Below are positions 18,845 to 35,844 of a stretch of 50,855 bases of DNA, piece after piece. The notes under the pieces were generated by a model. The model ran no database searches, was not told the DNA's origin, and saw only the letters and a list, made by a program, of their open reading frames with translations. A program made the translations under genes and the position numbers. Positions within the stretch are counted from its first letter, which is position 1. Each line of letters begins with the position of its first letter. Source of the DNA: Chloroflexota bacterium (GTDB lineage Bacteria > Chloroflexota > Limnocylindria > Limnocylindrales > CSP1-4); the NCBI GenBank assembly GCA_017881915.1, contig JADGQK010000010.1:1-50855 (forward strand). The letters run 5' to 3'.

Positions 18845-19140
18845 CCGAGGGCCCGGGGCGCCCATCAGCCCGAGCGCGGGCTACAGCAGCGGAACGTCCG
18901 GTGGGTCGGCGCTGTCGAAATTGACAAGAGCGCCGTTTGGTGACGCTTATGGTCGATCGCGACGATGGAATGCGGTCGACGGCCTCGGCTCCGCGCGGAT
19001 TCGTGCACGGAGGCGCTCGGCCAGACCTCGATCGAGCCCGAAGACCACCCAACTTCGACCATAACGTGCGCTGGGGCGCGCGTTTGGCAAGAACCCGCAG
19101 GGTGGGTCGGGGTGGGGTCCGTGCCGGGTCCTGGGACGCG

Positions 19141-19344
19141 CCGGGGTGCCCACAGAACATCAAGACGCCGGTCTTGGATCCCGGCAAGCTCCGTGGCCGC
19201 CGCCACCGCTCGAGTTTCGTCCCGGCGTGAGCGTGGCGCGGCACGAATCCGCGCAGCCAAGGCTGAGGTGAACCTCCTGAGGCACCAGCAATGGCGGGTT
19301 TCGGTCCGTCGATGGTGTTTTGATGTTCTGTGTGCACATCCGGG
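19141..19344. repeat. Palindromic intergenic repeat element, copy A (~204 bp)
   Basis: Left arm GGTGCCCACAGAACATCAAGACGCCGG and inverted right arm (rc) GGATGTGCACACAGAACATCAAAACACC; central GTGGCGCGG at +80 from CAGAACA; colinear with copy B. Confidence 0.8.
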
Positions 19345-19367
19345 CGAATCTCGGCTCGGGCCCACGT

Positions 19368-35148: not shown

Positions 35149-35274
35149 GTCTGGGTCGGGGGACGGGCCCGCTCGAGCAACCTCCGATTCCGTGGCTCGG
35201 CGCCAGGGGTCCCGGCCCGAATGGCCAGATGTGGCCGGCATCGACACCGCGCCGTCGATTTCGGCCGAGGCGTC

Positions 35275-35477
35275 AGGATGTGCGCTCAGAACAACAAGAC
35301 GCCGATTTCGAAGCGAGACGAGCCCGGCCGGCACTGTCTTGCGCCCAGCTCCAGCCCAGCCCAAGTGTGGCGCGGGACAAAACGGGCGACGAGGCTCGTC
35401 GTCGACGCGGCCCCAGGTGGAAAGGACCGGCTCCCGGTTCGAAACTGGCGGTTTGTTGTTCTGAGTGCACACACCGG
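35275..35477. repeat. Palindromic intergenic repeat element, copy B (~203 bp)
   Basis: Left arm GGATGTGCGCTCAGAACAACAAGACGCCGATTTCGAA; right arm (rc) GGTGTGTGCACTCAGAACAACAAACCGCCAGTTTCGAA; central GTGGCGCGG at +80 from CAGAACA. Confidence 0.85.
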
Positions 35478-35620
35478 CAGGCGGCGCGTCGGCCGCGACC
35501 CACCAGTTGCCATATGTCGCCCGCAGCGATCTACCCGGCACGGGCACAAGCGTGGCGAAGCCGCGGGCCAACAACGCGCCGGGGCAAGGCCATGGACCGA
35601 AGGGCAGGCCCGCCGAGGGG

Positions 35621-35644
35621 CCTGGGCGCCTTCTCGCGTTAGGT
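35621..35644 (+). repeat. Direct repeat, right flank of the element-B insert (DR-R)
   Basis: CCTGGGCGCCTTCTCGCGTTAGGT; abuts the rpmB stop codon. Confidence 0.85.
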
Positions 35645-35844
35645 CAGCGAGCGGCCTTGACGATCGTCCGGCGGCAGCGGGTGCACACGGACTGCTTCTT
35701 GGGCTCACCCGAGGCGGTCATGATGACCAGCGGCTGCAGGTTGGGCTGATAGCGGCGGTGGGCACGGACGCGGTTCATCCCGGATGACTGCGGGTTGAAA
35801 CCGCCCATCGAAACCTTGCCACACACGGCGCATGCTCGGGACAT
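35644..35844 (-). CDS. rpmB: 50S ribosomal protein bL28
   Basis: MSRACAVCGKVSMGGFNPQSSGMNRVRAHRRYQPNLQPLVI...VCTRCRRTIVKAAR. Confidence 0.96.
   Translation of the reverse strand: MSRACAVCGKVSMGGFNPQSSGMNRVRAHRRYQPNLQPLVIMTASGEPKKQSVCTRCRRTIVKAAR

Follow-up and report, generated by a model that had tools for sequence, protein, structure and literature searches.

Two long inverted repeats lie in a 50,855-nucleotide stretch of DNA from a Chloroflexota bacterium (assembly GCA_017881915.1, contig JADGQK010000010.1; the whole stretch is called the window here), copy A spanning 19137-19346 and copy B at 35275-35477. What keeps the two arms of such a repeat alike? Is it selection on a stem, in folded RNA or hairpin DNA, as an earlier note on this DNA suggested for copy B, or is the repeat an assembly of sites of another kind? 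The near-identical inverted arms are real; the segments 35279-35318 and 35432-35471 form 40 nt that are 83% complementary. Our analysis indicates that copy B probably belongs to a family of mobile elements that are short, gene-free and non-autonomous, similar to miniature inverted-repeat transposable elements (MITEs), with a protein-DNA complex that would need three sites in helical register.

Matches to an arm profile were paired, with 90-330 bp as the sole length rule, and gave 70 arm pairs across four species of the window's genus. These are the window's own genome (G000, 2.92 Mb in 166 contigs) and G001, G002 and G003. An element consists of arm 1, a 36-bp core, found inside most arm pairs, and an inverted arm 2. 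The span between arms is 149-215 bp in nearly all pairs and no gene lies inside. The core consensus, ATTCATCCCGGC-GTGAGCGTGG-CNCGGGATGAAT, is an imperfect dyad with half-sites of 11-13 bp around a strongly conserved, asymmetric 8-bp centre. In the profile aligned on the core, two stretches carry information, arm 1 at about -94 to -55 and the core itself at -18 to +18; the 36 bp that separate them carry almost none. Arm motifs are inverted in all elements and both arms of any one element are of one sequence type, also in other genera. The 41-nt arms are identical at 31/41 positions inside copy B, 28/41 inside copy A and 26-28/41 between A and B.

In 52 of 61 elements the distance from arm 1 to the core dyad is 85-86 bp, and arm 2 lies at 75-76, 85-86, 95-97, 105-108, 116-117 or 128-129 bp in nearly all; element lengths cluster near 150, 161, 172, 182, 192, 202 and 214 bp. 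The two distances are 86 and 105 bp in copy B and 86 and 106 bp in copy A. The difference between the left and right arm distances, a measure chosen for being independent of where an arm is taken to start, falls on multiples of 10.5 bp with zero phase (R = 0.83, n = 61, p ~ 6e-19). None of 2000 sets of jittered lengths was as periodic as the observed set, and the ladder keeps p ~ 3e-13 once one partner of each orthologous pair is removed. These p-values overstate independence, the copies being kin, but the clusters are still plain by eye. In other genera the same difference in 26 elements with clear arms is again close to a multiple of 10.5 bp (R = 0.90, p ~ 7e-10), with one clear exception. 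Total span was also tried there as a measure and dropped (R = 0.04, not periodic), since the start of the arm is arbitrary in those genera. The observation that orthologous copies differ by whole turns (lengths 203/161, 171/193 and 191/182) is not used as evidence because their spacers are mostly unalignable, and they may therefore be independent insertions.

The sequences show a conserved geometry with arms that differ between genera, and they place the two inverted arm sites and the near-symmetric core on one helical face. Steps of 10.5 bp at zero phase fit double-stranded DNA with bound protein and would not be expected from an RNA stem; on this reading the element acts at the level of DNA. 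We infer that proteins bind the arm and core sites and that the purpose of the phasing is synapsis of the ends. Both arms would be bound by an enzyme whose gene lies elsewhere in the genome, and the core would be bound or bent by a second protein or by a further domain of that enzyme. The DNA between the sites is short and stiff and would have to keep them in helical register if the ends are to meet, so that spacer insertions and deletions would persist mainly as 10.5-bp steps while spacer sequence drifts.

How large is the family? Searching the window's own genome at the DNA level returned many more arm matches, which often form inverted pairs with a separation of 150-200 bp. An arm pattern search gave 38 matches there against one with a reversed control pattern, far more than chance would give; the genome has 20-25 copies. 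A similar excess is found in the three congeneric species and in G017, the rest of the family being at background. Searches with arm 1 plus core, and with the core alone, located the core beyond the window's genus as well, in several genera of the same family, where it sits between inverted arms of very different sequence. In many of the family's genera few copies or none could be detected, and plasmid and phage collections gave no match. Two variants are recorded. In G017 (L137-L142) a form of 137-138 bp has arms CAGAACACCAA and a different centre, which reuses the arm half-motif (CTTCGGTG...CACCGAAG). A form of about 145-150 bp (two copies at L130, L091:8024-8169 and L131) has a centre resembling TTAGCCG...CGGCTAA, not the usual core.

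Does the family move? In a further genus, g6, a recent subfamily has at least 10 near-identical copies in G008 and one in its sister species G050, with unrelated flanks. The full unit in G008 is about 260 bp and reaches some 5-30 bp past the arms, which makes the inverted repeats strictly subterminal. One recent near-identical G008 copy has an 11-bp spacer insertion, a span of 174 as against 163 bp and a change of one turn. Two G008 insertions, L251 and L253, correspond to empty sites in G050, the latter with a clean junction and direct repeats. The empty site of L253 reads GGGTGACAGCGCC-GCGTGCGACGCGCAG-CAAGTGC and the filled site carries GCGTGCGACGCGCAG on either side, one perfect direct repeat of 14-15 bp; repeats at other G008 copies are partial. 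The recent copies and empty sites of g6 mean that the family is, or was, mobile, and show that its spread to new sites in this one genus has been recent. Empty sites with a clean junction come from g6 only, none being shown in the window's genus, which presumably uses the same mobility. Size (MITEs are shorter than about 500 bp), absence of genes, inverted ends and empty sites are the reasons for a MITE-like placement. As a separate observation, a sequence of about 22 bp, GGGTGACANNGCCGCGTGCGAC, adjoins many recent copies (L253, L257, L258, L259, L262 and L263, in G008/G050) and stands alone at empty sites. It may be an insertion target or an excision scar.

Several points count against mobility as the explanation. 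The genomes compared are fragmented draft assemblies. The duplication in G008 is of ambiguous length, 9-15 bp, because related GCGTGCGAC sequence adjoins many copies, and an empty site that has one repeat might instead be the scar of a deletion. In the window's genus target duplication is not detectable, with 8.65 matches of 12 compared to 8.87 in the control. No gene for a transposase or recombinase was found within or next to an element, in an analysis that included no search aimed at RAYT, Cas1-solo or DDE transposases, and no gene family is enriched in the neighbourhood. Nor, within these draft genomes, was any arm pair found to enclose a gene, long-spaced pairs included. Finally, some 10 gene intervals, including that of copy B and its G002 counterpart (L116), are filled in two species, and this could point to a function for the host.

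A host function is possible, and the alternative built on it deserves to be set out. Sites for a nucleoid or regulatory protein would form a small, phased DNA loop in intergenic regions, kept by selection on the host and spread by occasional duplication. Helical phasing fits any looping complex, the elements sit between housekeeping genes in every gene orientation, the core is conserved across genera, and the intervals filled in two species fit this proposal as well. Recent bursts and empty sites argue otherwise, as does the finding of most copies in one species only. G001 has 44 bp between the aligned flanks at the copy B interval and no element, and the genera with few or no detectable copies are a further difficulty. 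In the best orthologous pair, copy B and L116, the spacers can still be aligned and conservation is 0.81/0.84 for the arms, 0.72 for the core and 0.83/0.68 for the spacers; with arms, core and spacers so alike, one cannot show that the sites were under selection after speciation. We regard a host device as unlikely, though less so than the other alternatives. Two further observations concern the placement of copies. In G000, G001 and G002, 14 of 49 elements lie within 500 bp of a contig end where 2.7 are expected, an excess of about 5-fold. It counts in favour of mobility, as strain-level presence and absence would produce it, though assembly breaks at inverted repeats would do so too. A shared core orientation along contigs with distant copies (about seven same and four mixed, scored by hand) is inflated by tandem copies and is not claimed.

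Could the element be a site for site-specific recombination, with the core as the crossover site and the arms as accessory sites? In the attP of lambda-type phages a core with short half-sites around an asymmetric centre is flanked by arm sites, and phase matters. The core layout and the two phased arms recall that architecture, and the G008 insertions lie at the repeated GCGTGCGAC sequence. Unlike attP, the element is present as many intact copies per genome with symmetric inverted arms, and no linked integrase was found. The sites are dispersed and are not split into left and right junctions, and many active sites would scramble the chromosome. Of 30 tyrosine-recombinase (PF00589) loci in six genomes, none is accompanied by arms and a single one by a core within 1.5 kb; no link to such an enzyme was found. 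A recombination site is an improbable reading.

There remains the stem. The earlier note held that arms are more alike within a copy than between copies, and took this as compensatory or concerted evolution. The window itself has just two copies, but those in the rest of the genome and in its relatives make a test possible. Identity over the 18-nt motif bears out the first part in G000 (15.70 within copies, 14.57 between, p = 0.0005), G003 (14.69 and 12.97, p = 0.0005) and G001 (p = 0.026), but not in G002 (p = 0.11). The excess is confined to motif positions such as 14, 16, 23 and 24, one of them the AACAACAA / AACATCAA position remarked on in the earlier note; the outer flank of the arms has none, nor does the inner arm (positions 28-41, p = 0.2-0.74). 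The arms do evolve as a matched pair, so 'concerted' was the right word, but covariation of the kind that compensatory change would leave is absent from the inner arm and from the core dyad, where pairing is 70.5% with true and with shuffled partners alike (248/500 shuffles). A TTCGAA palindrome, noted in both arms of copy B, is indeed there but is peculiar to that copy, the family consensus at this position being only CGATTTCG.

Folding gives the same answer. Copy B folded as RNA has z = -5.4 and the mean over 59 elements is -4.24 relative to shuffles, but with arms and core fixed and only the spacers shuffled z is -0.35, and spacers folded alone (-0.08) are similar to flanks (-0.25). All the excess folding stems from the inverted motifs and none from the spacers. 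A stem is not needed to explain the matched arms, which follow without any pairing if one protein binds both arms or if the copies descend within a subfamily. A structured RNA or DNA hairpin, its stem kept by compensatory change, draws on the z of copy B and the match of arms within copies and is very improbable given covariation limited to a few motif positions, the origin of the folding excess, the 10.5-bp phasing and an Rfam scan of the window that found one tRNA and no family match at copy B.

The sites of both copies are listed below. Adjoining copy B, a small open reading frame (35644-35844, minus strand) resembles ribosomal protein bL28, a likeness judged by eye alone.

Sites of the two elements in the window, with the basis of each assignment
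Feature	Position	Strand	Basis
Copy B arm 1 (proximal; motif TGTGCGCTCAGAACAACAA at 35279-35297)	35271..35311	+	arm profile, pairing
Copy B 36-bp core (left half diverged; centre CAAGTGTG)	35348..35383	+	core profile
Copy B arm 2 (distal, inverted)	35439..35479	-	family scan (top single arm match), pairing
Copy A arm 1	19137..19177	+	pairing
Copy A 36-bp core, TTTCGTCCCGGCGTGAGCGTGGCGCGGCACGAATC region	19214..19249	+	core profile
Copy A arm 2 (distal, inverted)	19306..19346	-	pairing

Among known systems the closest layout is that of the Neisseria Correia element, which also has an internal segment. Correia/NEMIS elements are likewise short, gene-free and dispersed, mainly intergenic and with inverted ends, and the 155-bp form has an internal segment with a site for integration host factor (IHF) between those ends (PMC2229807, PMC10969869). 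The present family differs in that the centre is conserved and the arms vary with lineage, the arm-core distances follow a 10.5-bp ladder and the core is not a known IHF site. Reviews of Correia-type MITEs make no mention of helical spacing, of a conserved centre with variable matched arms or of three-site geometry (PMC2229807, PMC10969869), and we found no report of these features in the open-access literature. The repetitive extragenic palindromes (REPs) and bacterial interspersed mosaic elements (BIMEs) of enterobacteria and pseudomonads are also dispersed intergenic palindromes, some composite with inverted units (PMC2817692). REPs are hairpins of 20-40 bp (PMC2817692), whereas the arms here are about 40 bp each and about 100 bp apart, phased, and lack hairpin covariation. 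The long direct repeat at the G008 insertion is the reason for which IS1202 and casposon systems were considered. Members of the IS1202 family are elements of about 1.5 kb with ends of 24-26 bp and a transposase gene, one group making target duplications of 16-28 bp and another being site-specific (PMC10132070). Such elements are larger than ours, which have no gene.

What might such a family represent? More tentatively than for copy B itself, we propose that it may exemplify a class of dispersed DNA elements in bacteria whose defining trait is geometry and not sequence: a conserved centre and exchangeable matched arms, placed at whole turns, would build a three-site looping complex. Such an element could be a minimal substrate for transposition or recombination, or a domesticated site that organizes the chromosome. 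Helical-phase constraints on protein-DNA loops are usually demonstrated in engineered constructs. Here close to 90 natural loci, spread over several genera, reveal the constraint in raw sequence, with differing arms and constant geometry. The model predicts one arm-binding and one core-binding protein, and the family would give direct access to the question of how mobile elements this short join their ends despite the stiffness of DNA.
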